Assembly: GCA_019448385.1 (NCBI GenBank)
Contig: JAGTXO010000014.1
Coordinates: 248,001-312,000, forward strand
DNA from: Diacronema lutheri
Taxonomy: Eukaryota; Haptophyta; Pavlovophyceae; Pavlovales; Pavlovaceae
Direction of reading: 5' to 3'
Length of the DNA: 64,000 bases
Shown here: piece after piece, positions 1,554-27,009 of the stretch
How positions within the stretch are numbered: the stretch's first letter is position 1
Layout of the letters: each line of letters opens with the position of its first letter
Translations under genes and position numbers: made by a program
The notes under the pieces: model-generated
The model's input: only the letters and a program-made list of their open reading frames with translations
The model's database searches: none
Told to the model about the DNA's origin: nothing

Positions 1554-2760
1554 ATGATGGGGAGAGAGGCGCTTGTACTCGAGATTGCCGACCTCCTGGC
1601 CGCGCAGCCGGATGGCGCGCGCGCCGCGCTCTGCGAGGACGCGTTGCACCTTGCTGCGCAGCCGGCCGAAGCGCGCGCGGCGCTATGCGCGGCGCGGCTC
1701 TCGGCGTCCTTTGGGCTGGGCGAGGCGACAATTGAGTCGGTGCTCGCAGAGCTCTCGATGGCCGCCAAGTACGAGCTGACGTTCGGCGAGTACGAGCTGA
1801 CGCATGTGCGCCAGCTGCTCGCGCTTGGCGAGCGCGGTTGCGTCGACCATCTCGCTGAGCTGGGCGTGACGCCCAACGACCGTGACCGGCTCGCCGCGCA
1901 CGTCTTTTGCGCCGACCGCCCCAACGTCACGTGCGGCGGCGCCTTCTCGCCCTCGTGGCTGCGCGTCGCGCGCGGCCTCTACTCGCAACATATGGGGTGC
2001 GAGAACATGGGGCCGCTGCTGTACGCCCTCGCGAAGTTTGCAAAGGCGAGGCGTGCGCTCGAGATCGGCGCGGGCTACACGTCGCTCTGGCTGCTTCAGG
2101 CGCTCGCGGACAATCAAGCGGAGCTGCGGCGGTACGCGAGCCTCGAGCGGCAGAGCGCGTGCTCTGGGCTGCTGGTCGCCGACGTGCTGGAGGCGAGCGC
2201 CGCGCGCGAGAGCGTCCTCCACTGCGTGGACAATTTGGCGCACGCGCAGACGACGGCGCACCGCGTTGCCGACGCCGCGCGCGAGCTCGGCATTGACGCA
2301 CATCTCCGCTTCGTGCAGGCGGATGCGTGGACGCTGGCGGACGAATGGCCTCAGGGGCCGGCCGAGCTCCTCGACTTGCTCTGGTTCGACTTCGGCGCGG
2401 GCGGCCGCCTGCCGCAGCTGCTCGCCGCGTGGTGGCCTCGCCTAGCGCCCGGTGGCCTCTTGATCATTCACTCGACGCTGACCAACGCGCTCACGCGCGC
2501 GTGGCTGGAGACGGTGCGCAGGCCCGAGCCGGGCGCCGAGCCGCTCGGCGAGGTGGCACACCTGAGCCTTCTCGAGCCGCACAAGGTGCGCGCGCGCGCA
2601 CCGCCGCAAGGTCGCGCGCGCGCGCGATCTTGCGCATGGCGCCACGCGGTCGACCGGTGCCGTGCGCCGCCCGCGCGCACAGCGCTACCAAAACTCGTGC
2701 ACCATCCTACAGAAGCGAGGCGACGGGTACGCCGAGCCCATCCACACGCTGTACCCTTGA
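1554..2760 (+). CDS. Class I SAM-dependent methyltransferase
   Basis: Two exons, 1554-2585 and 2683-2760, joined across a 97-base GT-AG intron, give about 369 residues (six more if the ATG at 1536 is used). The glycine-rich SAM-binding motif I is clear (LEIGAGYTSLWLLQAL, about residues 170-185). It is followed by an acidic strand end (WFDFGAGGRLPQLL) and the post-strand PGGLLIIHS of a Rossmann methyltransferase fold. The organisation resembles small-molecule O-methyltransferases of the Methyltransf_24 type, but the substrate cannot be read from sequence. The second exon adds the C-terminal 25 residues and ends at a TGA. The intron is almost pure CG/GC alternation with a good CAG acceptor, which is why unspliced translation looks like poly(Arg-Ala). 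Confidence 0.75.
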
Positions 2761-3159
2761 CGCCATGTCGCGCTTGCCCAAGCGAGAGGCAAGGGCCTGG
2801 ATGGCACCGCTCAACTTCCGTTTCGCTCCATGACTTTCAGACGTTGCTCAGCGACCCTCATGCGGCCGCGTGGTTCGCACGCCCGCCTGGCCCAAGGCGA
2901 GAGCGCGCCGCGCGCTCATGTGGCAGTGGCGCGCAAGATGGCGCGCGCCGCTGAGGCCGCGGAATCCGCCGCGAGCGCGTGCGTCGAGCTGCGAGAGGCA
3001 CATTGCTGGTCACCGGACATCGCAAGGGCCGCTTCGCGCCAAGCCGAGACACTCGCGCCCGCCCTCCCCGCACACCTCGTCCAACCCACGGTCCAGGTGC
3101 GAGCGCACGCACGAGGCGCCGCGCACGCCGACGACGCGCCGGCCGGCGCCGCGCGCTGC
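2761..3159. other. Convergent intergenic region, nothing recognised
   Basis: About 400 bases lie between the stop of the methyltransferase (plus) and the stop of importin-5 (minus). Long open frames cross it on both strands because of GC content, but none shows protein-like composition or a recognisable motif. It must hold both 3' untranslated regions. Confidence 0.5.
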
Positions 3160-4146: not shown

Positions 4147-7100
4147 CAGCTGCTCCTGCTCTGCAGCAGCCGACGCGCATGCGTGCCGGCGCGCCGGCGC
4201 GCCTGCGTCCTTGCCCTTGGCCGCGGCGCCGGCGGCGAGCAGCTGGAACGCTGGCGCCTTGCGCACGCGCGCCTTGCACGCGTCGCTCACCGCAGCGGTG
4301 AGCTGCACGGCCGGGAACACGAGGCCACAGCCCACGCTCAGCCGCGCTTGCGTGAGCACCTCCTGTGCGATGGCGCGCGCGGCGCGGCGAGCGCGGCGCG
4401 CGAGAGGCGGGCGCGTGGCCGCGTGGCACGGCGCAGCGTCAGCCGGTTGGCAGGTTCGGAGACGCGCAGGGTGCGCGATGGGCGCGCTTGCTCGCCTTGA
4501 TGGCCATCGCAATTGCGACGGCGACGCTGGTCGCCTGCTCGGCACGAAGCGCGCCGACGAGCGTGTGTAGCGACTTGTCGAAGAGCGGCTGCACTTGCGA
4601 CGCCTGCGACGCACCGGCGCGCAGCGCGATGGCGGCGCACTTGCACATCTCAAAGTGCGCGTACGCGGCGTTGCGCCGGATCGACTCCTCGAAGCGGTAC
4701 GTGACAAGGCCACCACCCGGCGCGCAGCCGTGGCAGTCGGCCGCGAGCACCGCCATGGCCGCCGGCACGTGCGCCGCGAAGGCGCCACCGAGGGCCTCTG
4801 CAAGCCGGTGCAGCGATTCGAGCGCGGCTGCCTTGCTTGCGACGTGCTGTCCGTTCACAGACACGCGCAGCCACTTGCCTGGAGTGCGGCGCGCGCGTGG
4901 CCGAGGCGAGACGCGGCGCGCCGTCGACGCGCGCGCGCGCTGGTCAGCGCAGGCTGGTCAGCGCCAGCGCGCCGTGGGCGCGGCGGGCAGCGCAGCGGGC
5001 CCTGCTGGGCGCACGGCGCGCATGCATGGGAGCGGCCAGGCGCGCCGGGCACAAGCGCGCGCAGCGGCGAAAGAGGGCTGCTGCTGCAGCAGCGGCGCAC
5101 CGCTTGGCGACTTGATCACTTGAGTCAGCCAGCCGCAGCCGCCGTCGCCGGTGTCGTCGTCGTCGTCCTCCTCCTCACCGCCACCGTGCTCGAGCGCTTC
5201 CTCGTGCTCAGCGGCCTCGTCGTCGGTGAGCTCGTGCGTGTTCACCTCGATCGCCGTGCTTGCACCCGCGAGCAGCCGCGGCAGCAGCGCCGCAAGCAGC
5301 CGCGGCTCAAAGTCGGCGCCGACCGCGCGCGCGACGTGCGCCCACGCGCCGTGCGTCGCCTTGACCAGCTCCGCGTCGACGCCGTCAGCGCCGGCGGGCA
5401 GCGTGCCGAGCAGCTGCACAAGCGACTCGAGAAGCGCGTAGCCGTCAGTGAGCGCGCAGCTGAGCGACGCGGCGGCGACCGCGCCCGCCGCCTCGATCGC
5501 CTTGGCGCGGGATGGCACGTCGGCCGGCTGCGCGAGCGCGCCGATGCGCGCGACAAGCGCGCGCAGCAGCGCCGGCGCGTGCTGCGCGAAAGCGTCGCCA
5601 AGAGTCGCCTTGGCGAGCGCGCCGATGGCGTCGACGGCGGCGTCTTGCGCGCGCGCCGGCACGCCCGCGTCGAGCAGCCGGCCGAGGCCGTGCAGCAGCT
5701 GCGGCACGGCGGGCGCGAGGAGGGGCGGCGATTCGGCGCCGAGCGCGGCTATGGCCTCGTGCTCCGTGCCACCAAGCGCCTCGCACAGTGCGACGAGCGC
5801 GTCGGCGCCGTGGCGGCAGACGGCGAGCTCGGCGTCGCCAAGCGCCGCGAGCACGCCGCGCACCGCCGCGGGACCGAGCGCGCTCGCGTCCGCGACGAGG
5901 AGCGGGAACGCGTCGCAGAGGTGGGCGAGCGCGTCGGCCGCCGCCCAGCGCACGCGCGCGTGCGCGTGCGCGCCGGCGTGCTCGGCGAGGGCGAAGAGCT
6001 GCGGCGCGTGCGGCCGGAGCTCGTCGACGCAGTTGCCCGCAGCCCAAGCGACGAGCACGACGGCGCCGTGCAGCGCGCCGCCGCCATCGCCGCCCTTGGC
6101 CGAAAGCTGCTCGACGACCTGAAGGAGCGCTGGGCACACCGACTGGCCGCCGAGCGCCGAGCTCAGCCGGTGCGCCGCCTCGCGCGCGACGGCGATCTCG
6201 ACCTCGCCGTCATCGGCCTCGTCATCGCCGCCCGTCGCCGACAGCGCCGCCGCCTCAACCCACGCGGCCTGGTCCGCTGAGTCGAAGCCTCGAGAAATGA
6301 GCTCGCCAAGCACCGGCCATGCAAGCCGCGCCACCTCCGCGCCGCCCACCTCCGCCTTGACCATCGCAGGCGCGGCTTCGCACAAGCTGAGCACGAATTC
6401 GACCGCGAGCGCGCGCGCGCGCGACGGCAACCCACTCCCGACCGCGCTGACCGACAGCATCGCCTGTAGCGCGCGGCTCGCGCGGCGGCGTGAGCGTCTT
6501 CACCGTGCGGCGCTGGCGCACACGTTGTGCTCGCTGCGCACGCGCGTTCGCGCGCGCGCGGAGCGCACCGAGATGAGCGGCGCGGTCTGGCCGCGAAAGT
6601 AGCGCGGCGATGCGCTCGCGATGTTGACCAGCCGCTCCATCGCGTCGAGCGCTGGGCCCTCGTCGCCGCCGCGCTGCACGGCCGCACCGAGCAGCTCTTC
6701 GACCGTCACCATCATCGCGGGCGCGAGAGCGCGCGCGCGCGCGCGGAAGGCGCGGAGCTGCGTGGCGACGGTGGCGTGCGGAACCTCGGCGTCGGTCGAG
6801 GCGACGAGCACCTCCTCGAGCACGCGGATCGCCTCGAGCCGCACGCCGAGCGGCTGTGTGCGCTGCAGCGACGCTTGGACGAGCGCGCCGATGCGCTCTT
6901 GCACGCGCGCGGCGCGCGCGAGCTCGGCGGCAGACGGCTCGTTCTCGTCGGCGGCCGGCACGATGACGGAGGCGGCGACGGCAGTGAGGATGGCGAGGCG
7001 CGTGAGCAGAACCTGCGGCTGCTCCGCGGAGCCATCGTCGCGCAGCAGAAGCCCGTCGATCAGATCAGGCCACGCCTCCGTTGGGAGGAGCTCGCACGCG

Positions 7101-7610
7101 AGTTGGCCGATCGCGTCGCACACCTTGCGCCGGACGGCGGCACTGGGCTCGGCCTCGACCGAGCGCAGGAGCGCAGCTTTGGTGGAGGCGCGGCTCTCCG
7201 AGCCAAGCCGGCCGTATAGCGCCACCACCTGCCGCCGCGCGAGCACGGCGCACGACGTGCGCACCTGCGCGCGGCGCGCAGTCGCGGATCACGTCGGGAG
7301 GATGCGCGGGGTGCCCGTGAGCGGCGAGCGCGCTCGACGGGCTGGCCGAGCGCAGCGCTGCTCCGTTGTCGCAGCGGCGGCCGAGCCCGCGTCGGCGCGC
7401 GCGCGCGCGCGCGCGCACGAGCTCGTCGCTCGACGACAAGAGCAGGCTCATAAGCTGCGTCATCAGGAACTCGGGATGCTCGGTCTTGATCCGGTTGAAG
7501 GCCTGCTCTGCCGCGCGTCGCGTCGCATTGTCGTGGTGCAGCACCGAGCTGATGATCAGCTCGAACTCCGAGTCCATCCCTTTTGGCGCGCTTTTCATCG
7601 ACAACGGCAC
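3160..7610 (-). CDS. IPO5: Importin-5 / karyopherin beta-3 (Kap121-type)
   Basis: Five exons on the minus strand: 7610-7419, 7264-6569, 6463-5101, 4878-4496 and 4362-3160, in phase throughout, about 1278 residues. The protein is a HEAT-repeat nuclear import receptor that carries cargo through the nuclear pore with Ran-GTP. The N-terminal repeats align well by eye with animal IPO5 (RTSCAVLARRQ; then CDAIGQLACELLP.EAWPDL). The acidic insertion in the central helices and the later conserved repeat blocks are also present. It is longer than the usual 1095 residues because of Ala-rich inserts and a run of 14 aspartates coded by a (GTC)n tract at about 4104-4147. Intron 4 (4363-4495) has a GC donor (AAG|GCGAGC) and CAG acceptor. 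Its start lies 62 bases from the 3' end of the giant upstream gene. Confidence 0.88.
4104..4147 (-). repeat. Trinucleotide (GTC)n tract coding poly-aspartate
   Basis: About 14 consecutive GTC triplets on the plus strand read as GAC codons in importin-5 exon 5. The tract sits in an acidic loop between HEAT repeats. Pure codon repetition, with no GAT, points to replication slippage rather than selection on each codon. Confidence 0.85.
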
Positions 7611-7672
7611 CCCGCGGTGGGAGTGGGACTTGAGGCAGACACTGGATGAACATCAATCGGACGCGGGACAGT

Positions 7673-8303
7673 TCAACTTCGGATCAGCCGCAGGCTCTGC
7701 TTCACTGGTGTGCTGACCACAGGGGCGGGCGCCCGCGCCGGCGGGCGCGCAGCCCGAGTCATCTGACGCACGTCTGTGACGGCAGGCGGCGACGGCCAGC
7801 GTTGACTGTGTCGTGACCCCTGCTGCCAGGCGCCGCCACGAAGCGCGTGCGCCGAGCGCGCGACGGAGGGAGAGCGACGCCGGGTATATACGACCCTTAC
7901 GGGGGCGTGCGAAGCCGCAAGCGGCTCGTGCTGAGGCTGAAGATCGCCATGAAGCGTTGTTCTCAGCAGGGTGTGGCAGGCGCGCTTCGTCGCGCCACCG
8001 GCTGCGCCGCCGCGCGGCGCCGCCACGCGCGGCGCCGCGTGCGCGCGCGCGCGCACGGCGGCGGCCGCGTCCTGTGCGCCACTGCGGCTCGCCCGTGCCC
8101 GCTTCGGGCCCGGGGGCGTGGCGCGCGTGCTCGGGCTGGCCGAGCCGCCCCGCCGCAAGGTCGCCGCCGACCGGCGAGGGGCTGCGCCGTTCGCGGCTGC
8201 CGTGCTGACGCGACGCTGGCGCTTCGCCTCCGGGGCCGCGTCGCGTGCGGACGCGAGCGAACCTCGCGCGTTGCCGCCGGTCGTGCCGGTGCCGGCAGCG
8301 GCA

Positions 8304-8336
<33 letters not shown>

Positions 8337-11300
8337 TGTGCGGCAGCGGCTGCGGCACCGTCGGCGGCGCCGGCAGCACCAGCACCGCCGCTGCGGCCGC
8401 GGCCGCGGCCGCGGCCGCGGCCGCCGCTGCGTCCGCCGCCGCGGCCGCCGCCGAGGACGCCGCCGAGGACGCCAACGCCGCTGCCGCTGACGCCGGCGCC
8501 GCCGCCGCCGCCGGCGCCGGCGCCGCCGCCGCGGCTGCCGGCACCGCCGCCGCCGGCGCCGCCGCCGCGGCTGCCGGCACCTCCGCCGCCACCGCCGCCG
8601 CCGGAACCGCCGCCGCCGCCGCCGCCGCCGCCGTTCGCCTCGTCTTCGTCCACCTGCAGCACGCCCTCGTCGTGCTCTCTCTCGCGACCGAGGGCGCGCT
8701 GCCAAAAGGCCTTGACGCGCTTGAAGCGGCCGGGCTCGGACGTGATGCGCTCATGCCTGCCGAGGTGGTCGGCGACCATGTCGAGCACATCGTGGTAGAT
8801 GCAGCGCGCCGCCGTCCAGTCGCGGTGGTAGATGATGCCGCACGCGTCGCACCGCGTTGCCCGCCACGCGCCGCGGCCGCTCGGCGAGCTGCGCGCGTAC
8901 GGGTGCAGCGTGCCTCCGCATCGCTGCAGCGGCGGCGGCTGCCCCGCCGCCTCGTCCGCCGTCGTCGGCGCGCCGTCGTCGGCGGGAGCGCCTGCGCCGG
9001 CGTCGGCGGCCGGCGCCGCGCTCGCAGCGGGCGCGCCCCGCACCTCGCGCAGCTGCGAACAGCACTTGGAGCTGAGCGGCTCGGGCACGAGCGTCGCCGC
9101 GACGCCGCGCCGGCGCAGCGCGCACAGCAGGCCGACGCCGAGCGCCGGCGCCTTGCCGCGCACGCAGCCGCCGCCGCGCGACCGGTGGAGCCAATCGCCG
9201 AAGAGCACGAGCAGCTGGTCTGGCCGCAGCCCCCGGTCGGTCGCGTGCGCGCGCACGATCCGCGCCGCCGCGCGCGCGCACTCGCGCCGGCCCGCGCCGC
9301 CGCGCCGCTTGCGCGCGCGCAGCCGCGCGCGCGCGCCGTACACGGGCAGCGTAGCCCGTCGCACGCGCTCGTGCGCGCGCGCGTAGGCGGCCTGGTCGTT
9401 CGCGCCGAGCGCGGTGCGCCCGCCGTGCGCCGCGCCGAGCTCCGCCTCGAGCGCGGCCGCCGTCGGCGGAGCACGCGGCGCGCGCGGCCGCGCGCCGCCC
9501 GGCCCCGACGGGCCGGCGCGCGCGCCCGGCTCGACGAGCGGCCGTTGCCGCGCGCCTTCGAGCTTGCTGCGCTCGCGCGCGTGCCCCGCGCGCGCGGCGC
9601 GCTCGCGCTGCGTGAGGTGAACCGAGGTGGGCTCGAGCCCGTGGCCGTTCGGCGCGTACGTCACGAAGCCGTCGGAGCCGGGGTCCACCGTGGCCGTCTT
9701 GAGGCCGTGCACCTCGATCGCCTCGGCCAGCTGCTCGGGCGTCGCCTCGTCGAACGTGCCGTTGGGATCGCGCCAATCGTCGAGGAAGGACTTGCTGCCG
9801 CCGGGCGGCGGCGGCTTGAACACCGGCACGACCACCTGCCAGGCGTGGCCGTTGTGGCGCATGTACACCGGCGGCTGCGGTCCGGCGGACGCGGTCGCGG
9901 GTGGGACGGCGGTGCCGACATACGTGGGCCGCTGCTCCGCCGTCACGTCGCTGCCGGGCAGCTGCTCGCCCGTCCACCGCATCGCCCGCTCGTCGAGGCT
10001 GACGAAGTGGCTGAAGATCATGTTCCTGACGCGCGGGTCGCTGGTCGCGTTGTGCGGGTCGCCGTGCGGCACGCCGTCGGCCGTCGACAGCTCGCGCACC
10101 CACTCGCGGACGAAGGCCGTGTCGTCCTCGTCGAGCAGGAGGTACAGGTCCTGCGCGGACAGGTCGACAAAGCGCTGCTGCATGCTCCCGCGCCGGGGGC
10201 AGAGCGCGTACGGCGGCGGCTCGCCGGTGACGTGCGTGTAGAGCATCGCGAGGCGCGCGAGCAGCGACGCGCCCATCGCCGCCTTATCCGGCTGCGCGGC
10301 GCACGCAAGGGAAGGAAGGGGGGGAGGGGGGGAAGGGGGGGGGGGGGGGTGGAGGTCGGGGAGCACGCCATCAGCGCCGTCGAGCGCTCCGCGCGCCGTG
10401 GCCCTGCTGCGCGCGCGCGCGGCACGTCGTCCGCGCGGCGCGCGCCCGTCCATGCCCGGCCGCGGCGCCACGCCGCGGAGCGCGCGCGCGCGGGGCGCGC
10501 CGCGGCACGCGCGCGCGCCGCGCGGACGGCGCGGCCACCGTCGCGCGGCCGGCCCGTGCGTAGCCCCCTCCGTCCCCGCGCGCGCCGCGCGGCGCGCGCG
10601 CGCGCGCGCGCGCGCGCGCGCACCGTCAGGAAGTAGTTGGTCGTGTGCCTGACCTTGGGGTCAGGCGTGCTGTAGTCGCATGGGAGCACGAGCCAGTCGG
10701 CGTGCTGCGCGAGCGCGGGCGGCAGCCGCGGCGCCGCGCCGGCCGTGTCGCCGGACCACAGCAGCTTGAGCAGCGTCGCGACGTCCGCGTCGCGCTGCTC
10801 ATTCGACGTGCGCGCGCCGCGCGGCTTGGCGGCCTCGCCCGCGTCGATCGCCGCGCGCAGCAGCTTGCGCAGCAGCTTGTACGCGACGCGGCGCGGGTGC
10901 ATCTTGTACGCGGTGAAGATCTTCTCCGCCTCGGTGTCGACGCAGCCTTTTAGCGAAGGGTGCGAGCGCGTCGTCGGCGCGTCGCCCTGCGACAGCCGGT
11001 CAATGTGCCGCTGGTTGCGCGCCCGCTGCGCCGCGTTGGCCTCGCCGAGCGGATGGCCGCGCTTCTGGTCGGGCGGCAGCTCGATCTGGCGGATCAGGTT
11101 CTCCACGTCGTCCTCGCCCTTGGGGTAGCCCTTCAGCTCGTCGTCTGGGCGCTGCAGCTCGTCGCCGGGCGAGCACTGCCCGGCGTTCGGCAGCGATGTG
11201 TGCGCGCGGTCGTTGAGCACGTTGTACGTCATGCGCGTGCTGGCGTTCGCCTCGTCCACGACGTGCATCAGCTTGACGCCGTACTTCGCCCGCCCGCGAA

Positions 11301-12475
11301 AGGCGCCGTCGCTGAGCTCCAGGGTCCGGTACTCCGTGTGCCAGCCCTTCGGCTTCTGCAGGCAAGCGATGCGCTCGCCCGTCGCGTCCGGCGGCTCGGC
11401 CGGCGGCTCGGCGCTCGCGCAGCACGCGCAGGCGGACGCGTTGGCCGCGCCGGCCGCCGGCGCGGCCGTCCGCGCGGCGCGGCGCGGCGTCGCGGCCGGC
11501 TCCGCGCACTCGCCGCACGCGAGCACGCCCCCGCCGACCGCGCCGCCCGCGCGCGGCCGCGCCGCCGCCGCGCCGCGCCCGGACGCCGGCGCGGTGCTCA
11601 CCGGCGACTTGAGGAGAGCGGCCTCGCGCTTGGCCTCCGCGCGCAGCCACGCCTCGAGCAGCCAGCCGGCCGCCTGCGCGTCGCGCTCGCGCGGCCACAC
11701 GCGCCCGGCGTTGCCCAGCAGGCCGCCGCGCTCCACGCGCAGCACGCACAGCGCGAGCGCGAGCGCCCACACGCCCGCGCGGCCTGCGGGCGGAACGTAC
11801 GCACGCGAGCGCTCCGACCGGCGCAGCGGCTCGAGCGTCGCGCCAAGGCCGAACACACGCGTGACGAACCCGCCCGCCCAACTTGTCGCCGCCGCGCCCG
11901 CCGCGCCATCGCGCGGCTCGCGCTCGAGCAGGAAGAACCGGCGCCAGCGGCCGCTCGGACCTGCGCCGTGCTCGTCGGCGGCGAGCAGGAGGAGGAGCTG
12001 CGGGTCGGCGCCGTCGCTCGGCGAGTGGACGAGCAGCAGCGCGTCGCAGTCGGTACCGTCGAGACGCTCGCGCAGCCGCTCTTGCGCGGCCTCGTGCCGT
12101 GCGTCGCGCGCGTCGAGCAGCGCGCGCGTCTCGCCCGGGCCGAAGAAGGCGCGGAACCCGCGCGCCGGGTCGCGCACCTGGGCGAGCACGCCGTCAATGG
12201 CGGCGGGCGCCACGACCGCATGCTTGCCGCCTGATGCCTTGAGCTCGTTCAGGCACCGCGCACGAGCCTCCCCCGGCGTCGGCGCCGCCGACGCCGGCGC
12301 GGACGCGACCGGCTGCCGCGTCACCGCCGCGTCGCGCGCTCGCAGCTGCGCGGCCGTCTCGCGCAGGATGAGCGCAAACACCGCCGCGCGGTACTCGGCG
12401 AGCTGCGCCGTCGCGTGCACGTTGAGCGCAAGCACGCTCGCCGCGGCAGCGAGCGCGCTCTGGTCGCCGCCGCCA

Positions 12476-12508
<33 letters not shown>

Positions 12509-15500
12509 ACGTCGGCGGCGGCGTCACGCGCGCCGAGCGCGAGCCAGGACATGACCACGACGCAGGCGGCGCGCGAATCCGCCTTGCGCTCGACGCGCCA
12601 GCGGCCGCCGACCGCGCGCCCGTGCGCCGTCGGCTGCGCCGACCGCGCGGTCGCCGGCGCAGCGCCGTCGACGGGCGGAAGCGCGCGCAGGCGGAGCGCG
12701 CGCGCGAGCCCGCGGACGAGCTGCTCCGCCTGGCGCTCGATCTCCTTGGCGCGCTCGCGCACGGCGATCGGCTTGGCCCCCGTGGCGCGCTCCGGCGCGG
12801 CGGTCGGGTTGTAGTGCTGCACCCAGCCGCCCTCGCCGTCGCGCACGACGACCACGACGGCCGCGCCGACCCGCCGATTGGTGCTGGCGAAGAGCAGCGC
12901 GAGGTGCGTGCACTTGCCGAGGCCGTGCTCGTCCAGCGCGGTCTGCGCGCGATTGGGCTCGCCGCCGCCGTCGGCGACGGCGGCGAGCAGCGCGCGCGCG
13001 ACGGCCGGTCCGGCCGTCCTCCACGGCCGGCCGGCTTTGTCCGCGGCGCGGTTGATCGCGCCGAGCTCGGCCTCGACGACGATCGAAGGCACCTCGGTGT
13101 ACTTGCCCTGGAGCGCGCGCACGTCGTGCGTCGACAGCGGCCGCCCGCCACACGTGTACGTGAGCGGCGGACCGCCGGGTCGCGCCGCCGCGTCGACGCG
13201 CGCGGTGTCGGCCGCGAGCCGCGCGCGCGCCTCGGCATCGCGCTTGCGCTTGCGCGGCAGCGGCGGCAGGTGCGGCGCGACGCGGCGGCCGCGCGACTCG
13301 CCGGCCGGCTCCGCGCTCGGCGCGCCGGGCGCGCCGGCCGCCGCGCCCGCCGCGCGCGCGCTCGCGCCGCCGCCGCGCGCGCGCGCGCCGTCCGGCTCGG
13401 CCGCGTACACGAGCAGCAGCGCGCGGCCCTCGAGCGCGACCCTCGCGGTGCACGCGCGCCTGCTCGCGGCGGCAACGCGCATCCAGTCGCGATCGCCGGG
13501 CGCGAGGGCAGCGCAGGCGACGAGCCGCTCCTTGTCGTCGCACGCGTCGCGCAGCACGACGGCGACCAGCCTGAGCACGGCGGCGGGCTCGGCGTCGGCG
13601 TCGGCCCCGGCGGCGTCCGCGGTCGGCTCGGCCGGCTCGGCGCCACGCGCGACGCGCAGCGCGAGCCGCTCGGGCATCTCGAGCAGCGACTCGGTCGCGT
13701 CCGCGACGTGCACGACGACGAGCCGCGGCGGGTTGCGCACCCCGTGCGCGCCGAGCGCGCGCAACACGGCGGCGCTTGCGCTCGCGCCGCGCGCGTCGGC
13801 GGCGCGCAGCGCGACGAGCGGCCACGCGGCCGACGCGCCGCGCGCCGAGGGCGCGCCCGGCGCCGGCGGCTCGCCGCCGCGCAGCGCGCGCTCGAGCTCG
13901 TCGCTCGCGCCGCACGCACGCAGCACGTCGAGCAGCGCGCGCAGCGCGCCGTCGGCCGACAAGCCGCGCGCCGTGCCCGCCGGCCAGCCCGCCGACTGCT
14001 CGAGCGCGGCGGCGAGCGGCGCGACGCGCGCCGACTCGGGCGCGCTCTCGTCATCGGGCTCGAGCGCGTTGTGCAGGCGCGCGAGCGCGCGCGCGACGGC
14101 CGCGGCGCCACTGTCGGGGGCGCGGCTCGCCGCGCGCACCGCGCGCCGCCAGGCCGGCACGAACATGAGCGCCGACACGAGCGCCGCGAGCGCGCGCGCC
14201 TCGCGCGCGTCGCTCGCGCCGAGGCGCGGCGGCACGCGCGCGGCGCCGCGCGGCGCGGTGCCTCGGAAGCGTGGGCTTAGCGTGTAGGCGAGGTGCTGCG
14301 GCACGCCGCGCGCCTCCGCGAGCGCGCGTCCGTCCTCGACCTCGCGCCACGCCTTCACGATCGCCGGCGTGGCGCGCGCGAGCCAGTCGGGGTCGGCGGG
14401 CAGGTGGATCACGACGAGAATCGGCGCCCAGTCCAGCCGCGGGTTCTTGTGACGGTCGGGCACGACCCACACGAGCAGCACCGTGCCCTCCGCGCCGCAC
14501 GCCGCCTCGTAGATCCTGGGCTGCGAGCGCCAATCGGGCTTGACGCGCAGCGCCCACGCGTGTTCGATGGCAGCGGCGCGGTCGCCATCGATGTGAACCG
14601 TCTTCACCTCGCCGATGACGGACCGGCCGGACCGCCAGCAGAACACCGCGTCCGCCGACCCGCCGGCGATGGCCGCGAGCGGTTCGGGCGCGGCGAGCCG
14701 CGGCAAGCCCTCGAAGACGGCAAAGTCCTCGTGCGCATTGTACACGCCGCCCCAGCCGTTGAGCGCGAGCGCGCGCGCGGCCGCTCGTACCGCGCGCAAC
14801 TGGTTCTCCACGCCCGACGTCATGTGCCATGTCGTCCCCGCGGAGCCGGGCTTGCCCAGCTTGGCCAGCACGACGTTACCGTACCCCGCGCCCTGCGTCG
14901 GGGCGGCGAGGCGGTGCATCTCCGCGCCGGTCATGACCTCCGGGCGCTGCTGCGTGACGATCGTGCCCGTCGCGTGCGCGTCGAGCGTGCCGACCACGGC
15001 GGGCGCGGGCTCGCCGCCCGCGCCGACAGGGCGCGTCCGACAGGGTGCCGACCGACAGGGCGCGTCCGCGTCGCCCTGTCCAATCGCAGTGTAGACGAAG
15101 CGGAGTTCGAGCGGCGCCGAGCCACCGCCGTCCGCCGCCGCCGGCGAGGTTGGCGCCGCGCCCGCCGCCACCGCGCTCGTCGCCGCCGTGCCCGTCACCA
15201 CCACTGCCGCAGCCGCCGCGCCCGCGCGTGGCGCGCACGGCGCCCCCGGTGCCGCGACGGCCGCCGCCGCCGCCACGACGAGCGCGCCCGCCGCCGCGTT
15301 CGCCGCCACGTGCGCCACCGGCGCGCCGAGCGGCGCCGAGCCACCGCCGCCCGCCGCCGCCGGCGGGGTTAGCGCCGCGGCCGGGGACGCGGCGGCGAAG
15401 CGCGCCGCGAGCGGCACGCCCCTCCGCCAGCGACGCGCCGCAACGGCCACGGCCGCGCGCTCGACACCGTCGCGCGCGTCGGGCAGGCCGGCGATGTGCG

Positions 15501-18258
15501 CGTTCGCACTGCGGCACATCTCGTCTGCGCTCGTGCAGCGCGCCCACGCGTCGCCGAGGTCGTGGCACACGACCGCACGCGCGAGCAGCGCGAGCTCGAG
15601 CGCAAGGACGGGCGGCTTCGCGCGCGCGAAGCCGCCGATCGCGACGTGCGTCGGCTCCGTGCTGAGCAGCTCCGCGCTGCGCAGCTCGCCGACGTGCGCG
15701 CGCGCGATGCGCCAGTCGTCGGCGCCGCCGACGCGCGGCGCGACGAGCAGCGGCCTCGCGGGGGCGCCCGCCGCGCGCGGCGGCAGCACGACGAGCAGCG
15801 CCACGACCCGTCCGCCTGTGCCATCGCGCAGCGCGACGACGAGCCTGGGGCGGAGTGACGGCGTCGACCGGCGCGTGCGTTTGCGGACGCCGTCGGCGTC
15901 GGCCGCGCTGCGCGCCTCCGCGAGCACAGCGTCGCCGTCGCGCGCCGCCCACGCGCCGTCGACGTGCGCGCGCGCGAAGAGCGGCGCGAGCTCGGCGGCC
16001 GCGAGCGCGGCGCACGCCGACGGCGCGTCCGCCCCGACGCGCAGCACGTCGAGCGCGTCGCGGAGCGGCGGCGCCGTGTCCGTCGCCCACCGCCACACCT
16101 GCTCGCCGTGCGCGTCGAGCGCGCGCGCGACGGCGCCCAGGCGCGCCTCGTCGGCCGCGCCGACCACTCGGCGCGCCGGCGCGTGCGGCTCGACGCGCTC
16201 GTACAGCGCGACCACGGCGAGCTCGCGCGCCTCGGCCGCCGCGCTGCCAGCGTTGTCTCGCTGCTTGCCGCCGCCGTCGACGCGCCACCAGCCGCCGTCG
16301 GGCGCGGGCGCGAGCACGGCGCACGCGTCGCGCTTGCGGCCGCGGCGCTGGACGAGCACGCTCGCCAGCGCGAACGTCGCGTCGGGGCCGCCGACGGTGC
16401 GGAGCACGAGCGCGCCGCCACCGCCGCCGCCCGGCCCGCCGAGCTCGACCGGCTCCTTGTCGGCCGACGGGCGGTCGATCGCGACCAGCAGCGCACGCGG
16501 CGCGCTCGAGAGCCGCACTCCGCCGAGCAGCTGGGTGACGTCGCGCACGCCCGGCGTGCCGCGCTGCCCCGGCCGCGGCGCGACGCGCAGCATCGTGAAC
16601 GGCGCGTCGGCCGAGCCGTCTTCGCCGGCGCAAACGCCGGAGAAGAGCTGCCAGTCGGGCAGGGCCACGTGCAGCTCGGCGACGAGCCGCTCGGCGACGC
16701 GGCGCGCGTCGCGCAGCTCGTCCGTGCGCCGCCGCGAGCGCTTGGCAGCGCAACGCGGGTCGCGCAGCGCGAGCAGCAGCTGGCGGAGGCGCAGCCGCGC
16801 GCGCACGTCCGACAGCCGCGCGACGCGCGCCAGCAGCGAGCGCAGCACCTCAAAGGGCGCGCGCTTCGCGTCCAGCGCGTCGCCGCGCGCGCCGCCGGAC
16901 GGCGCAAAGGCGAGCGCCAGCTGCTCGCGCACAGTCGCGGCGGCCGCGAGCAGCTCGAGCACCGCCTCGGGGCTGGCCAGCGCGAAGTCCTCTGGGGCTG
17001 CCGACGGCGAGCCTTGGCCGCCGCCGCCGCCGCCGCCGTCGCCTCCGTCGCCGCCGCCGCCGCCGTCGCCGTCGCCGCCGTCGGCGGAGTCGTCGTCGGT
17101 GTCGTGACCCGCATCGTCGTTGGAAAGGTCGTCGTCCCCGTCCTCCGCGTCCTCCCCGTCGTCAGCGGTGGTGGCGTCGCCATCGCCCCCGTCGCCCTCG
17201 CCCACGCCGAGGCTGCTGAATGGTCGGTGCCCCCACGCCGAGGCGGCGCGCCGCTGCGGCGCGCGCGGCGGTGGCGCTCGCGACGGCGGCCTTGGCGCCG
17301 CCGCGCCGCGCGGCCTGGCCGCCGTCGACAGCGCGCGGCCTGCAGCGCCCGTGAGCGCGTCGAGCGCGGCCGTGCGTACGATGCGGTCGGCGGGCGCGCA
17401 CAGCGCCGCCTCGACGGCCTGCAGCAGCCCGTCGGGCGCGGATCCGCCGACACTGGCACCGCACGCCTCGGCGAGCCGCGCGGCCTCGGCGAGCCGCGCG
17501 GCCTCGTCGCGCGACGCGCCGCAGCGCCTGGCGCCGTCGTCGAGCAGAGCGCCGATGGCGGCGCGGAGCGTGCGCTTGCGGGTCTCCTCGTACGCGGCCC
17601 TCTTGAGGTGCTCGAGGCGCGCGTCCAAAGCTTTCTTGATCCTGACCAGGTCAGTTGCGCGGCGGCCCGCCGTCGGCGCTGCGCTCGCCGCGACCTCGGC
17701 CGCGAGTGTTGCCGCGGCGAAGCAACACTCGTTCCCACTCTGCGCGGGCGCCTTCAAGGCCCCGATGGGCGGCGCTGGGATGCCGATGCGCTGGGCGAGC
17801 GTCTTGATGAGCTTGCCGGCCGCCGTGGCGTGCGCCGACTCGCCATTGCCCAAGCTGAGCGAATCGGCGTTCAGGGCGAGCGCGGCGCCGTGCGGCGCGC
17901 CGGGCTGCGCGGGCGGCGCGAGGAGCAGGTACGCCGCCGTGCAGTGCCCGACGCTGCCCGGCGCCTCGAGGAAGAGCGGCAGCACGATCGCGAGCACCCG
18001 CCCATCTGTGTGCGCACTCGCGCGTGCTTGGCCCAGTTTGTGCAGCGCCACGTCGAGCGCATGCTTCGAGCACGCCTTGTACTCCACCTTGACCACGCTC
18101 GGGCCGAGACTCTCGCCATGCAGCAGGGCGAGGACGCACTCGGGTGGGACCACGTGGGGGTGGCGCACATCGTTCGCCACAGTGGTGCTGAGGGCCAGCG
18201 AGAAACTGTCCGAGCTGCCCAGCCCGCCGCGCAAAGCGTCCTTCACGGAGTCCTCCAT
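7673..18258 (-). CDS. Giant fusion protein: Ulp1-like protease, PD-(D/E)XK-like nuclease and TnpB/Fanzor-like RuvC nuclease
   Basis: Exon 1 (18258-10624) and exon 2 (10291-7673) join in phase across a 332-base GT-AG intron, giving about 3417 residues. Domains seen in order are as follows. Residues 90-190 are a Ulp1/C48 peptidase-like module with H105, D132, Q173 and C178 (QSGNECC matching the family Q-x-N-x-D-C-G). Acidic and Ala-rich linkers follow. Residues 1150-1270 are PD-(D/E)XK-like, with D1203, E1217-V-K1219 and a QxxxY helix (Q1246, Y1250). A second, degenerate C48-like module has H1785 and C1899 but lacks the Gln. The C-terminal third has RuvC-I TVDPGSDGFVTYAPNG (D2748), RuvC-II VPEPLSSKCC (E2949), a CxxC zinc ribbon and RuvC-III YHRDWTAARC (D3036). 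This order is typical of TnpB/Fanzor. The tail is Gly/Ala-rich with basic nuclear-localisation-like clusters (EAKRQRR, GPKRARA). The last 300 residues may contain another intron. I know of no named family with this combination; mobile-element origin is inferred. Confidence 0.6.
10292..10623 (-). other. Intron of the giant gene with long CG and poly-G/C tracts
   Basis: The donor is ACG|GTGCGCGC and the acceptor is CGCGCAG|CCGGAT. The interior is (CG)n-rich, with a G-rich stretch at 10321-10349 on the plus strand that reads as a C-rich polypyrimidine tract just upstream of the acceptor. The intron is open in one frame, which would add about 60 low-complexity residues if retained. The join is supported because both flanks are protein-like and in phase. 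Confidence 0.6.
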
Positions 18259-21199: not shown

Positions 21200-22620
21200 C
21201 CGCCGGAGACGAGGACGCACTCACCGCTGTTGGCAATGCGCGCGTCACGGAGACAACTTGGCGGGCCTCGCACGCAGCTGGGCCGATCGCCGCCGTAGAG
21301 ATGTCTGCAGCCGTCTCCGCGATGCCGATCGTCGCATCTGTTGGCACCGCTGCCATCTGCCGCACCCGCGGCCAGGCTGCCGGCAAGGTCGGCGCGTCGG
21401 GCTCCGAGCTCGGCCACGCAGGCGATGCGGCCGACGGCGGTGACGCTGAGCCCAGCGCCGGGTCCAACGGCTCCACGTCGAGCCGGCTGTAAACGAGCAT
21501 GCTCGCACCACTTGCCCACGCCAGCGCGTCGGACTCTGGCACGTTGTAGATCTGCGCGGGCAACGCGCGTGCGTGCGGCAGGCGCGCGCGCGAGCTTTCA
21601 GGCCACGCGCGCGTGCCGCGCGGGAGGACGGGGCGGTTGCGGCTGCGCTCGACCGCCGGTCGCGGCACCGAGCGACCGTGCGCGCCGCCGCACGTTGTAG
21701 TCGTCGCACGGAAGCCAAGCCTCGTTGCGGAGCACGATGGCGACAAGGTGCCCGCTCATCGGCCCCTCGCCCACGTGCACCACGCCGGCGACGAGGAGGT
21801 GGTCGCGCCCGCCGAGTAGCAGCCGCGGCGCGCACACGAGCGCGCGGTTGTTCTTGCACTGCGAGCCATTGCCGCGCGTCGTGCGCGGCACCTCGACAGC
21901 AATGCTGGCTGGCGTGAGCACGCCCGAGTGGCCCGCGTTCGTGTGGCCATCCCGCGGCGGCCCAGCGGCGCCCCCCAGAGCGTGTGCAAGCGCGCGCGCC
22001 GCATCGCCTCCGACGCTGACGAGTACGGCGATGCCCTCGCCGGACTCTGAAGGCACGGCGATCTGCTCGAGCACTGGCCCGACGCGTGTGTCGGCTCCGA
22101 AGGCCGCAGCGAGCCCGGGCACTCGGCCGAGCAGCAACCGGAAGAACTCAGCGGCATCCTGCGGCGTCCTTCGCGCGCCACGGCCCGAGATGACGTCAAT
22201 GACGGACACAAGACACAGCTGTGTCGGCGCCTTGGTGTCCTCGATCAGCGTGCCAAAGTCCCGAAAACGCGCCCTCTCGACGCTGTTGGCACGGCGCGAA
22301 GCGGAGCGAAGCATCGCACGGAGCACGTTCAGGGCGAAGAGCGATTGCATAAGGACGGTCGTGTAGCACGCGTTGCCCTCGTTTTTCGCGCCTGCGCCGC
22401 GCCGCGCAGCGCCGGGTGTGCGGGGTGCGCACGCACGGTTTGCGGCGGGATGGAGGGAGGCTGGCTGGGCGCGCGCCGAGCCCGGCAAGCCGTGCAGGCG
22501 CTCACCACGCGGCACGCCGGGCACTCTCACCGGCCACATCGGGCCGTAAAACGCGTCTTCCACAGGCTGCCGACCGACGACGTAAAACTTGCCCAAGGCG
22601 CTGCGCCGTGCACGCGCCAT
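21200..22620 (-). CDS. Ubiquitin-specific protease-like (peptidase C19) protein
   Basis: Exon 1 (22620-21694) joins exon 2 (from 21551) across a 142-base GT-AG intron. The Cys box reads NEGNACYTTVLMQSL (about residues 80-94), followed by the QDA helix TPQDAAEFFRLLLGRV. The His box is GPMSGHLVAIV, with a closing WLPCDDYN. Exon 2 adds VPESDALAWASGASMLVYSR, the usual last strand of the fold. Catalytic Cys and His are therefore present and in order. This is a small USP without finger cysteines that I can see. The stop is uncertain: the exon 2 frame runs on through a Ser/Pro tail and a poly-proline tract to 20979, so the end given is approximate. It lies between the helicase relic and the giant gene on the same strand, and I infer it belongs to the same element. 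Confidence 0.6.
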
Positions 22621-24159
22621 GCGCGCGCTGTTGCGGGCTGCGCAGCAGGGACGACGGGGGAATAGGCGAGCGAGGGTTGGGCGCAGATCAGCGTGGTGGC
22701 GCGGCAAGACGAGCGCGCGCCGGGCGCCTGGCGCGGAGGCGCCCCGCGCGAGGACGCGAGCCGCTTCTCGCACCGGACGGGCGCCCACGCGCAAGCCGGC
22801 TTTCGAGGGCTGGTGGATGGTGGCAGATGCCGAAACGGACACATGGAATGATGCGTCGGCGGCGCGAGCGCGGGACGATCTTGCCCGGGCTATTGTGCGC
22901 ACGCTGCCAGCGCGCGTATGCGTGCGCATGCAGCGGGCGGCGCGCACGTTGCGCGTGACGGGGCGCCGAGCGGCACACCGGCGGGGACGCGCTCGCCGCT
23001 GCCGTGGCATCGTACGCTGCCTGCGTGCTGGCCCGCACGCACGTTGCCGGCGCGAGGGGACGGCGAGTGCGCCTCGGCCGAACAGGCGCGAACGTTACGC
23101 CCGAGCGCGTGGCCGGGCCCCGCCGACTGCACGCAGCGCCGGCCCAGGCGCGCATCCGCCCGACGCGGATTTGGACGACGCATCGACCGGCACGCCGAGC
23201 GTCTGCGCCCGCCTCGCGGCCGGTCGCGCCGGCCCCTCTTCGGCCCGAGGCCGCACGTCCGCCGCGCGCCGCTTCGGCGCGCGGCGCGGCGCTCCCGGAA
23301 CGCGCATGGCACACGCGCGGTGCGCGGGCACGCCCGCAACGCGCCATTCCAGCGCGAGCAGTTCGGCAAGCTTGCAGCGCGCGAGCAGCCGGGCATGTGC
23401 CTCGGACACACAGTTCGCTGTGTGCGCCGGCCGCGACGACACGGCGTAGCGGCGCGAGGCTGGCCGCCGGGGCCACGGGCGTACTGCCGTGGCGCGACGC
23501 CATGGTATGAGCATTAAATTCATCGGGGGGTGGGGTGGGGGGGGGGGGGGGGGGGGGGCGCGTTGTGCGCACTTGGCGCGCGAGTAGTGCGAGTGGCGGG
23601 CGAGCCTCGTCGCCCACGGAGCCCGCCCCCGGCTCGGCGGCGCGCCGCCTGCTCGCCGGGTCGCGCACCGCCGTCGCCGCCGCTGCGCACTTGCCCAGCT
23701 TGCCGGCAGGCGGCAGGCGGCGGCGACGGCGGCGGCTGCGGCTGCGGCTGCGGCGCGAGCGCGACGCCGGGCGGCGGCAGCGCCGACGGCACGCGCGCAG
23801 CGGCGACCCACGCGGCGGCGGGCAGCGCGCCAGCGTGAGGCCCCTGCGCGCCGGCCGCATTGGCGCCGCCCTGCGCGCCCTAGAAGGGCGCGCAGGTACG
23901 CGGGCCGGTCGCGCGGCGCGCGGTGCTGGCGAGCACCCGACGGCTGCGCGTCGGCGCGAGCGGCGCGGCGGGCGTCGCGCTGGCGGGTGCTGGCCAGCAC
24001 CGCGCGCCGGCGGCGCGCCCGCCGCCAGCGCGCCGCCCGCCACCGGCGCCGCGCGCGCCGTCCGCGCCCGCCGCCACCGCGCGCCGCCGCCGCGCATTCG
24101 CGCGCGGCGGCGACGGCGGCCGCGGCGAGCGCCGCCGCCGCCGCCGCCGCCTCGCCACC
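22621..24159. other. Low-complexity interval between the USP gene and the helicase relic
   Basis: Arg/Ala-rich open frames on both strands and no recognisable domain. It includes a poly-G tract (23537-23558) with a short ATTAAATT patch just before it (23515-23521), and Ala-coding GC triplets (24130-24165) that trail the helicase reading frame. Confidence 0.4.
23537..23558. repeat. Poly-G homopolymer (about 22 bases)
   Basis: A G run preceded by short interrupted G blocks (from 23525). One of the cluster of G/C homopolymers in the accessory region. Confidence 0.9.
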
Positions 24160-26533
24160 GCTGACCGCGCGGAGCACCTCTTTGAAGACGACGCTGCGCG
24201 TCACGAGGTCCGGGCCGAGCGCAAAGCGGACGCGCGACGTGTGCCCGACGCGCGAAGCGGCCACGTAGAGCTGGCCGTGCGTGAAGCACGGCTCGGCGAG
24301 CCACACGCCCGCGCACCCGAGCGCTTGCCCCTGCGCCTCGTTACGCCGGCCGCACCGGGGAAATGGCGGCGCATCCGCACAAGCGCGAACGTGCCGTCGT
24401 CGGGCGAGTGGTGGTCGACACGCGCGATGAGCACGGTGCTGTCGCGCCCGGCGGCCGCGCCGGGGCGTGCGCACTCGAGCAGCCGGCCGCCGGCGCGCAC
24501 GCCGCGCACGATCAGCCGCGTGCCGCTGCACAGCCCCTCGCCGGGCGAGAGGTTGCGCAGCAGCATCACCACCATCCCGGGCTTCAGGTCGAGGACGCGG
24601 TGCGGCATCTGCGCGTGCTCGAGCGAGTCGAGGAATTCGACCGACGCCAGCGCAATCTGCTTGCCCGCCCCGTCGTCGCGCCAGCTCGTCCGCCGACTCG
24701 CACCTCGCCGCCGCGCCCGGGAAGCGGCCGATCACCAGCCAGTTGATCCGCGCCACGTCCGTCTGCTTGGCGCAGAGCACCGCGCGGTCGCACAGCGAGC
24801 CGTCGTCGGTCCAACACGCCGCGCCGTGGACAAAGTCGTCACGAGCTCCGTCGGGTAGGTCGAGCCCACGCGGATGGGGACGCCGCCGACGGCCTCGGGC
24901 AGCTGCACGGGATCGAGCGGGAATGCGCCGGGCATGGCCCCGGCAGCCGGCACCGCCGCGGGAAAGGCGCCGTCGCCGGGGCTGCGCAGCAGCTTCGCCC
25001 ACTCGCCCGCGCCGAGCGCGTCGCCCGTGTCGCGCGCCGCGCTCGAGGCGCGAAAGTTCTCGACCAAGGCGTGCTGCCGATCGTGCTGCCACGGCGCCGA
25101 GTACTTGAGGCAGGAGCGCACGATCTGCGCGCGCGAGCCGCGCCGCACCACCGGCAAGCACTGGCGAAAGTCGCCGGCGAGCAGCAACGTCTCGCCGCCG
25201 AAGCGCTCGTCGACGCCCGTCACGTCGCGCAAACACCGATCAGGTGAGTCGAGGTGGCACCGCGTCTGCATCGGCGCCTCGTCCCACACGACCAGCCGCC
25301 GCGGCGGCCAGGGAGCGCCCGCGCTCGGAGCGCGGCACGCCATTGAACGGCTTGCCCGTCTGAGTCGGCACCGCCGGGCACCTTGAAGGTCGAGTGGAAG
25401 GTGCGGCCGTCGGGCAGCAGCGTGGCGGCGACGCCCGAGGACGCGCCCACGACGACCGCGTGCCCATCCGCGCGCACGGCGGCGATGATGGCGCGCTCGA
25501 CGAACGTCTTGCCCGTGCCACCCGGCGCGTCGCAAAGATGCAGCCGGTCGCCCACGCCGCGCAGCGCCGATTCGACGACCGCGCCGTGGAGCGCGCGCTG
25601 CTGGCCGCCCTCGGCCATCGCTGCGCGCGCCGCCGCCGCGCTCGCAGCCCGCTCGGCGCGATCGTAGCCCTGCGCGCGCGCGAGCTCGCGCCCGCCCGGC
25701 CCGGCCGGCGCGCGCGCCGTGCGCAGACCGGCCACCGCCGCGAGCGCCGCCGCGCGCTCGCGCTCGTCGGGCACGTACAGCCCCGTGGAGTCGAACGTGC
25801 CGGCCCAGGCGGGCACGCCGTACGAAGCGAAGGCGTCCGAGCCGGGCTGCGGCCGCTGCTCGGCGCGCTTCAGGAGCATGACCCCGCACACGTTCCACTT
25901 GGTGCCAAACATCGAGCCCGTGAGCCCCGTGTAGACGCAGTCGAGCTGCGTGGCGATGGCGCAGACGTCCTCGTGCCGGATCTCGTCGACCGGTTCGCGC
26001 CGCGCGTCGACGAGCGGCACGACGCGCTCGGAGCCCGCCCACGTGAACGTGCGCGTCGACATGTTCAGCCGCGTGTGCGCGAGCGTGTCGTCCTCGTACT
26101 TGGGCTTGACGGTGGGCGGGAGCTTGCCGCGCACCTCCTCCTTCGAGAGGCCGCGCGTGTTGAGCAGCTCCTTCTGGCGCGCGTGCGCCGTCTCGACGCG
26201 CTGATCGTCGATGGCGCGCAGGGCGCCAAAGTAGGCGTCCATCTGCGCGAGCGGCGCGCCTTCAATCGGCAGCTCCTTGTCGGGCACGCCGGCCGTGTAC
26301 GCCGCCTTGTCGACGTCCGTCGGCCCGTACATGGTGCCAAAGTTGCCGTCGCCCGTGAGCTCGGGCCAGTCGACGACGCAGGGCGGCGTGACGAAGGCGA
26401 GCGCGCGGCGCGACGGCCCGTAGCTCAGCTTGTCGACCGTGCGCGCCTTCTCGTTCGGCTTGACCGGCCGCGTGCTCACGATCTCGCAGTTGACGAGCGC
26501 CGCGTCGAAGGCGCGCAGGTCGATGGCGGCCAT
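24160..26533 (-). pseudogene. Frameshifted fusion of an ssDNA-binding-like domain and a Pif1-type helicase
   Basis: The ATG at 26533 opens a frame of about 390 codons. The first 250 residues resemble an OB-fold, single-strand-binding-like protein seen in large DNA viruses. The supporting pattern is FVTPPCVVDWPELT, later GLTGSMFGTKWNVCGVML. The frame then runs directly into Pif1 motif I (DAPGGTGKTF). The remaining helicase motifs are all present but in changing frames: VVWDEAPMQ, LLAGDFRQCLP, a C-terminal NLSPGEGLCSGTRLIV and QGQALGCAGVW...FTHGQLYVAASRV. I count about five frame changes (near 25370, 25310, 24840, 24700 and 24360), none explained by a plausible intron. Either the gene is dead or the assembly has base-calling errors in GC-rich DNA. 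Pif1-like helicases of this shape are typical of Helitrons and of large DNA viruses. Confidence 0.65.
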
Positions 26534-26724
26534 GGTCGTTTTGCGCGGGAGATCACGCTGCAGGCGGCTCCACAGTGGGTTCGAGAAAAAAAAAAAGCTG
26601 GGCCAACGGTCAGTCGAGCGCCACAAGCAACCCTCGGGAGCCGGTGGCCCAACCCAACCCAACGATCTTCGTCGCCACCCTTCGCGCGTTTTCCGTTCCC
26701 GCCCAAGCAGACAAGGAGACCACA

Positions 26725-27009
26725 ATGTCGGTGCTGCTCGGCGCGATGATGGGCCTCAGCGGCTCGGTGGCGATCGTGCTCTACGTGCGCGCGCGACGTC
26801 GCGAGGTGCAGCACGGGCGCGTGGCGACGCCGCGCATCATCCAGCGCCAGCTCGAGCTGCAGCTGCCGTGGGGCCGGCCGGACGAGGCATCCGTCGCCTC
26901 GCGTGCCGAAACGCCAAGCGTCGAGGCCGCGTCGCGCTCGGTGCGCGACGCGGCGCCCGAGCCGGACCCGGACGAGGGCTACGTGCGCGTGGCGAGCGCG
27001 GCGTTCTGA
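26725..27009 (+). CDS. Small single-pass membrane protein, unknown function
   Basis: An ATG at 26725 gives 94 residues ending in TGA. Residues 2-22 form a hydrophobic helix (LLGAMMGLSGSVAIVLYV) followed immediately by a basic stop-transfer cluster (RARRREVQHGR). The rest is a soluble, acidic, Ser/Ala/Glu-rich tail ending ...DEGYVRVASAAF. Composition is protein-like, unlike the shadow frames around it. The start context CACAATG is preceded by an AT-richer leader. It lies 190 bases from the divergent helicase relic. I do not recognise a family. Confidence 0.5.
   Translation: MSVLLGAMMGLSGSVAIVLYVRARRREVQHGRVATPRIIQRQLELQLPWGRPDEASVASRAETPSVEAASRSVRDAAPEPDPDEGYVRVASAAF

Follow-up and report, generated by a model that had tools for sequence, protein, structure and literature searches.

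A giant predicted fusion of a Fanzor-like nuclease with other modules in a multicopy mobile element of the haptophyte Diacronema lutheri

Fanzors are known as compact stand-alone nucleases, and their role in the transposons that carry them is unsettled. Can such a nuclease also be one part of a far larger chain, and if so, what carries the gene and what might guide its product? This question is raised by a 64,000-nucleotide stretch of the Diacronema lutheri genome (GenBank assembly GCA_019448385.1, contig JAGTXO010000014.1, positions 248,001 to 312,000; hereafter the window, numbered from its first letter), the minus strand of which holds one exceptionally long gene. An earlier interpretation, made from the letters of the window alone (the sequence-only reading), had joined a Ulp1-like protease, a PD-(D/E)XK nuclease and a Fanzor/TnpB-like RuvC nuclease there in a single spliced frame. 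We report here that the gene sits in a repeated, multicopy mobile element at 7884–31528, a setting that the sequence-only reading had overlooked, and that comparison with diverged copies argues for a real and conserved giant Fanzor fusion.

The element spans 23.6 kb, is given no strand as a whole, and has edges defined by comparison of copies. The search for other copies that had been proposed with the sequence-only reading was made in the D. lutheri assembly (43,492,796 bases, 103 contigs) and returned 39 matches to the RuvC-I segment, the window included: 26 at 91% identity or above and 13 at 46–69%. The published genome comprises 43.503 Mb in 103 contigs with 73.25% GC (PMC8379373). Ten fetched copies were 95–99% identical to the window in aligned blocks, and in all ten the left edge was sharp, the match stopping at about 7883/7884, give or take a few chance-matched bases. 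The right edge at 31528 is common to dozens of copies, and both ends occur together at six places (window included) with a spacing of 21.3–25.0 kb. Diverged copies are shorter, at ~6.8 kb for the one on contig C5 and ~11.7 kb for the one on C42. A palindrome near the right end (GTACGACCCGGGTCGTAC, 31464–31481, no strand assigned), ~47 nt from the element end, shares TACGACCC with the left end. As read, the left edges begin with GTATA, except in the degenerate copy L062, and of 13 distinct right ends inspected by eye (among L029–L051), 10 have G as the base following the terminal TATATA. A target preference or a short duplication may be hidden in these end bases. As for an empty site, the joined flanks of the C78 copy matched that copy only.

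How far does the gene extend, and is it one gene? From an ATG at 18258, the minus strand is open for 2545 codons (exon 1, 10624–18258, residues 1–2545), a frame that holds Ulp1-like, PD-(D/E)XK-like and degenerate modules and, at its end, the N-terminal part of the Fanzor (residues 2300–2545, 10624–11361, minus strand), so that the Fanzor starts within the giant exon. A predicted phase 0 intron (10292–10623, minus strand, GTGCGC...CGCAG), the GT and AG dinucleotides of which all ten close copies retain, separates exon 1 from exon 2, the element-borne portion of which (7884–10291, minus strand) carries Fanzor RuvC-I, -II and -III, a zinc ribbon and a basic Gly-rich tail. The spliced frame of 3417 codons was thereby borne out, but its 3′ end at 7673 was not: the repeat stops at 7884, and the window-copy frame merely continues into host DNA as far as 7673. 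Because these ~70 codons (7673–7883) are host flank read in frame and eight of the ten close copies stop inside the edge, the full length of 3417 residues is specific to the window copy; judging from their stop positions, the product of the eight copies would be roughly 3,330–3,355 residues.

A frame of this size in GC-rich DNA might arise by chance. Long frames do occur on both strands here, and 200 first-order simulations of the same stretch reached a maximum of 1469 codons (mean 697). The longest observed frame, at 2752 codons, was not reached in any simulation, and the diverged copies avoid stops and conserve amino acids, which makes chance an extremely improbable source. Supporting this conclusion, codon-aware column shuffles gave z values of 6.5 (window versus C5) and 10.1 (window versus C42) for the Fanzor and 6.5 for the PD-(D/E)XK-like module (window versus C42), and no stops were observed in these comparisons with C5 or C42, against 5.5–10.5 in the shuffles.

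The proposed splice is likewise supported by the diverged copies. In C5, protein homology runs in one frame over residues 2300–2545 and in another over 2546–3094, at 57% identity, with the break exactly at 2545/2546, where the splice was predicted. Identity across the intron is 0.62 (three shuffles, 0.56–0.58), as compared with 0.76–0.79 in the flanking exons. In C42, a single frame of 2369 residues holds the PD-like module (36% identical) and the Fanzor N-terminal part, which is 57% identical in C5 and 26% in C42, and the next frame holds the Fanzor core. The Fanzor exon is 63% and 49% identical in the two diverged copies, which share the splice site, frame and fusion. These comparisons uphold the earlier claim of a fusion and suggest that the intron is spliced in vivo. 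An alternative is that two adjacent genes are present, a large N-terminal protein and an independent Fanzor of ~800–1000 residues starting from an internal Met near 2290–2330, the missing stop between them being an effect of extreme GC content. Stops are rare at the composition of the window, and the shortened C5 element retains the Fanzor and only a small portion of the giant part, as such an arrangement would allow; against this, the window, C5 and C42 all have the Fanzor N-terminal part sharing a frame with modules upstream of it, with linkers of different lengths and no stop between. We regard two separate genes as distinctly unlikely and a single fused gene as the better reading.

The C-terminal module carries the signature residues of a Fanzor. 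In its RuvC core (8819–9685, minus strand), the catalytic acids named in the sequence-only reading were found in the expected contexts: D2748 (9683–9685) in DPG, E2949 (9080–9082) in PEPLSSKCC and D3036 (8819–8821) in HRDWTAAR. The CxxC between RuvC-II and RuvC-III is likewise present (C3026-x-x-C3029), the other zinc-ribbon cysteines being C2956 and C3003. All three acids and all four cysteines are invariant in four of four aligned sequences, down to 37% identity in L064 (C5:258500–260300), an example among the scored TnpB-zinc-ribbon matches of the genome. DPG stands at RuvC-I in the window, C5 and C42, with DPN in L064, and the displaced RuvC-II glutamate is found as E2949-x6-C2956 in all four. 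Consistent with this, PMC10711439 describes Fanzors by DPG at RuvC-I and by an alternative RuvC-II Glu, which precedes the first zinc-finger Cys by six residues. The Fanzor/TnpB motif of Bao and Jurka, as given in PMC3627910, is D-X(125,275)-[TS][TS]-X-X-[C4 zinc finger]-X(5,50)-RD; in the window the gap is 203 residues and SS and RD are present, while the first two Cys are 47 apart rather than in a CxxC. The TnpB zinc-ribbon profile PF07282 (TNB) left a trace in three of three members, all under the curated cut-off (window E 0.00078), and L064, which is related to the giant protein at a BLAST E of 2e-43, scored 28.3 bits against a cut-off of 26.3. Moreover, the carrier is a eukaryotic mobile element, multicopy and with defined edges, that is not of the IS607 type, as for Fanzor1. 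Taken together, the signature residues, the TNB trace and the mobile setting support the assignment as Fanzor-like that had been made from sequence.

Searches beyond this genome confirmed no relative. A PDB sequence search gave nothing for the Fanzor region alone and two chance-level matches for the Fanzor alignment, and an NCBIfam search gave nothing. Protein searches for relatives outside D. lutheri returned three proteins among 7996 and 8000 candidates scored, all of them D. lutheri gene models, and a further search confirmed none of 8000 scored, by a method that finds a relative only through exact words or short patterns held in common; viral contigs and prokaryote genomes, searched by exact words and short patterns only, likewise gave no confirmed relative. 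One published gene model, KFE25_000685, fuses a Fanzor fragment to a WD-repeat/Utp12 protein and is probably an annotation error to which an element close by gave rise.

What might guide such a nuclease? The sequence-only reading had suggested that a guide RNA might be encoded where the gene ends (3′) or beyond 7673. The Fanzor reads toward the element edge, where the gene strand closes with two hairpins and UAUAC (7884–7954, minus strand). The outer hairpin (7890–7908) ends 6 nt from host DNA. Across ten left ends from about three lineages (L061 and L062, degenerate or with no clear edge, and identical ends were left out), four of its seven pairs show compensatory change, and both the covariation score and the cells with double changes were reached in 0 of 500 shuffles. 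The hairpins of L015 and C42 fold strongly, with 0 and 1 of 200 shuffles, respectively, doing as well. In eight of the ten close copies, the Fanzor stop is a TAA in the loop of the terminal hairpin, 16 nt from host DNA; the remaining two are L027, which stops earlier, and L023, which gave no motif match. The window copy has a one-base length difference at the terminal loop, and its frame reads on. Omega-RNAs that overlap Fanzor stop codons and transposon right ends are mentioned in PMC10432273. The layout seen here is as would be expected of an omega-RNA that takes host flank as its guide, and we propose the terminal region as the place where an omega-RNA scaffold may have its 3′ end, the guide then following beyond it (7883 and down). 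The proposed guide RNA is therefore plausible, with the covarying terminal hairpin in its favor, and is treated as a candidate throughout.

The labels of the N-terminal modules come from their motifs. The order H-D-Q-C is that of the catalytic residues of peptidase C48 (Ulp1), and such a set is indeed present as H105, D132, Q173 and C178 in the first module (17542–18258, minus strand); H, Q and C are invariant among three sequences, and D132 is kept in two of the three as aligned. GxxD...ExK...QxxxY is the motif of RecB-like PD-(D/E)XK nucleases, and the second module (14272–15003, minus strand; RecB/lambda-exonuclease type) shows D1203, E1217-x-K1219 and Q1246-x3-Y1250. In C42 the module shares 41% identity and every motif residue, and in L041 (C29:188491–198490), whose 1345-aa N-terminal Ulp1-like/PD frame is related to the N-terminus and PD module of the giant, the catalytic Lys is replaced by Thr. 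Profile support was lacking for both labels: the first module had no C48 match in Pfam and no match in the PDB, and the second matched no nuclease family in Pfam and no nuclease structure in the PDB, where the matches of its alignment were unrelated proteins led by phosphate-binding proteins (E 0.0014). Hence the modules might be mislabeled, being neither protease nor PD-(D/E)XK nuclease, a view that the missing Pfam families, the foreign PDB matches and the Lys lost in L041 would favor; with GxxD...ExK...QxxxY kept at 41% identity and H, Q and C invariant in three sequences, we consider it rather unlikely. Thus the motif sets of the earlier assignment stand while its family labels are putative, and protease and second-nuclease activities, with the roles suggested for them below, are predictions from these motifs. 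By eye, residues 1700–1910 and 2040–2200 resemble degenerate relatives of the first module; Pfam gave nothing on residues 1700–1910.

The association of Fanzor genes with this type of element extends beyond the giant family. A survey of the right end yielded 40 scored copies of 280 candidates, window included. For 28 of the 40, a Fanzor was located at a distance of 5–31 kb with the side and strand predicted (the TNB list supplied 20 and the giant-family list 8), as compared with 3 of 40 on the mirrored side on any strand, and 9 of the 28 spacings were 29.9–30.6 kb. A TNB family search of the genome gave 150 scored matches of 306 candidates, 148 of them over the cut-off, the window's own copy not being among the 150 listed. 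The commonest open frame among these was of 1015 residues (61 of 150), and many of the matches come from a single family, whose 1015-aa frame is carried by elements sharing this right end, at their far end. The D. lutheri genome thus appears to be loaded with Fanzor elements. L041 belongs to one element with a spacing of 29.9–30.6 kb, and there the N-terminal frame is followed by a different frame of 1856 aa with another Ulp1-like H...D...Q...C module.

Based on these findings, we propose an explanation that we hold, as a whole, with moderate confidence. A multicopy element of 20–25 kb would encode a spliced fusion of ~3,350 residues, the C-terminal ~800 residues of which would form a Fanzor1-type nuclease. 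In the transcript, the 3′ end would overlap the last codons and fold into the two hairpins at the element edge, and its processing would yield an omega-RNA guided by the host sequence next to the element. The Fanzor could then cut an unoccupied copy of the site, and repair would copy the element back, by which the element would be kept or spread; such cut-and-copy-back retention has been proposed for TnpB. The Ulp1-like module might cut the nuclease free of the giant chain or take off SUMO-like modifiers, the PD-(D/E)XK module might trim DNA ends, and a PIF1 helicase of the element might act in its replication or repair.

Several results weigh against this explanation. In the nuclease itself, two Cys set far apart stand in place of the first zinc-ribbon CxxC, and in C42 the frame meets a TAG right before the splice. 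At the 3′ end, the number of pairs with double changes was reached in 48 of 500 shuffles, the fold energy is nothing unusual in two sequences, being equaled by 28 of 200 shuffles for the window copy and by 102 of 200 for C5, and the stop lies 79 nt inside the edge in C5 and 72 nt outside it in C42. The right-end survey left 12 of 40 copies without a listed Fanzor and placed two further Fanzors on the other strand, and six-frame Pfam scans of 18.3–31.5 kb found no transposase, serine recombinase or Rep (HUH) domain. Constraint between the window and L041 is weak or absent (z 2.1 for the PD module, 0.3 for the Ulp1-like module). Among nine recent copies and the window, with L011 left out of the counts for a rearranged exon 1, substitution ratios by segment scatter around neutral (0.38–2.16), and third codon positions were less changed than second positions in three of seven comparisons. 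Because of this third-position pattern and the near-neutral recent copies, the support is for long-term, not recent, selection. In four of the ten close copies (L015, L017, L019 and L021), exon 1 and exon 2 down to 8900 contain no stop and no net frame change; the other six have frame changes or rearrangement in those stretches, and L027 and L011 also have stops.

Such neutrality would also fit a Fanzor that is real but does not act here as an RNA-guided nuclease, whether decayed, serving the replication of the element or acting as a DNA-binding platform; the hairpin would then be no more than a signal for a transposase or for replication, of the sort known from Helitron2. The two ends, one with a hairpin and the other with a palindrome close by, do resemble those described for Helitron2 (PMC3627910). 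The three catalytic acids and four Cys, invariant over deep divergence, speak against this alternative, which we judge unlikely, and RNA guidance by the flanking host sequence is the reading suggested by the terminal layout. A bolder extension is that a clan of 20–31 kb elements, making up a notable share of the genome, encodes single giant polyproteins that combine an RNA-guided Fanzor, a RecB-like nuclease and a cysteine protease, which would either set these two free or prepare their targets by deSUMOylation; the guide would be copied from the occupied host site and the Fanzor stop would lie in the scaffold loop, each copy being its own programmed homing nuclease. This we offer only tentatively, as a rather doubtful possibility.

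The D. lutheri Fanzor is reminiscent of Fanzor1 in its DPG, its displaced RuvC-II glutamate before the zinc ribbon, its four Cys and RD, and its carriage by a eukaryotic mobile element with the coding end at the element end beside hairpins. It differs in that its frame continues for >2,300 residues with other modules and in that its first zinc knuckle is split. Some Fanzor1 proteins reach up to about 800 residues, according to PMC10711439, and no giant Fanzor fusion was found in the literature consulted, parts of open papers, with preprints and most subscription journals outside its scope. Among carriers, the closest likeness is to the Helitron2 elements CRe-1,2,3 of Chlamydomonas, which carry Fanzor1 (PMC3627910): these too are elements of an alga, have a hairpin or palindrome close to each end, are represented more often by one end than by the other and encode a PIF1-type helicase. 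In contrast, the D. lutheri element is 20–25 kb long and ends in TATATA with no TTTT target seen, no Rep (HUH) domain was found in it, and its helicase is not a recognizable RepHel; Helitron membership was not adopted because the six-frame scans gave no Rep domain. In the TnpB/omega-RNA systems of IS200/IS605, the coding end of the nuclease also overlaps a terminal hairpin and points to flank usable as guide, whereas the system described here is eukaryotic, spliced and a giant fusion, and its RNA is a candidate. Near-identical recent copies, with a coding end over a covarying hairpin at the host boundary, offer a direct test system for RNA-guided cutting in a eukaryotic element. The fusion suggests that Fanzor-type nucleases can partner with proteases and other nucleases in one chain, and it could show how large mobile elements come to incorporate and use RNA-guided nucleases.

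The rest of the element encodes few recognizable proteins. Scanning the window with Rfam (gathering thresholds) and for tRNAs gave nothing, and the six-frame Pfam scans returned only PIF1 (with AAA_30) and a ubiquitin carboxyl-terminal hydrolase (UCH). The UCH match lies in an open reading frame at 21601–23010 (minus strand; PF00443, E 5e-10, over the cut-off). The PIF1-like helicase, with an N-terminal region that matched no family, is at 24507–26755 (minus strand; PF05970 3.1e-16, PF21530 1.4e-15; second frame 1.4e-23); in the window copy it shifts frame near 25364–25403, where the profile matches overlap in a manner that is not intron-like. The stretch at 27854–29491, which is not shared with the copies compared and carries CCAAACAGTTTGG-type and CCCTACACCCTACACC-type repeats, is probably a nested insertion. 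Outside the element, a host gene adjoins the left edge (6163–7652, minus strand), which we take to resemble an importin-beta family protein.

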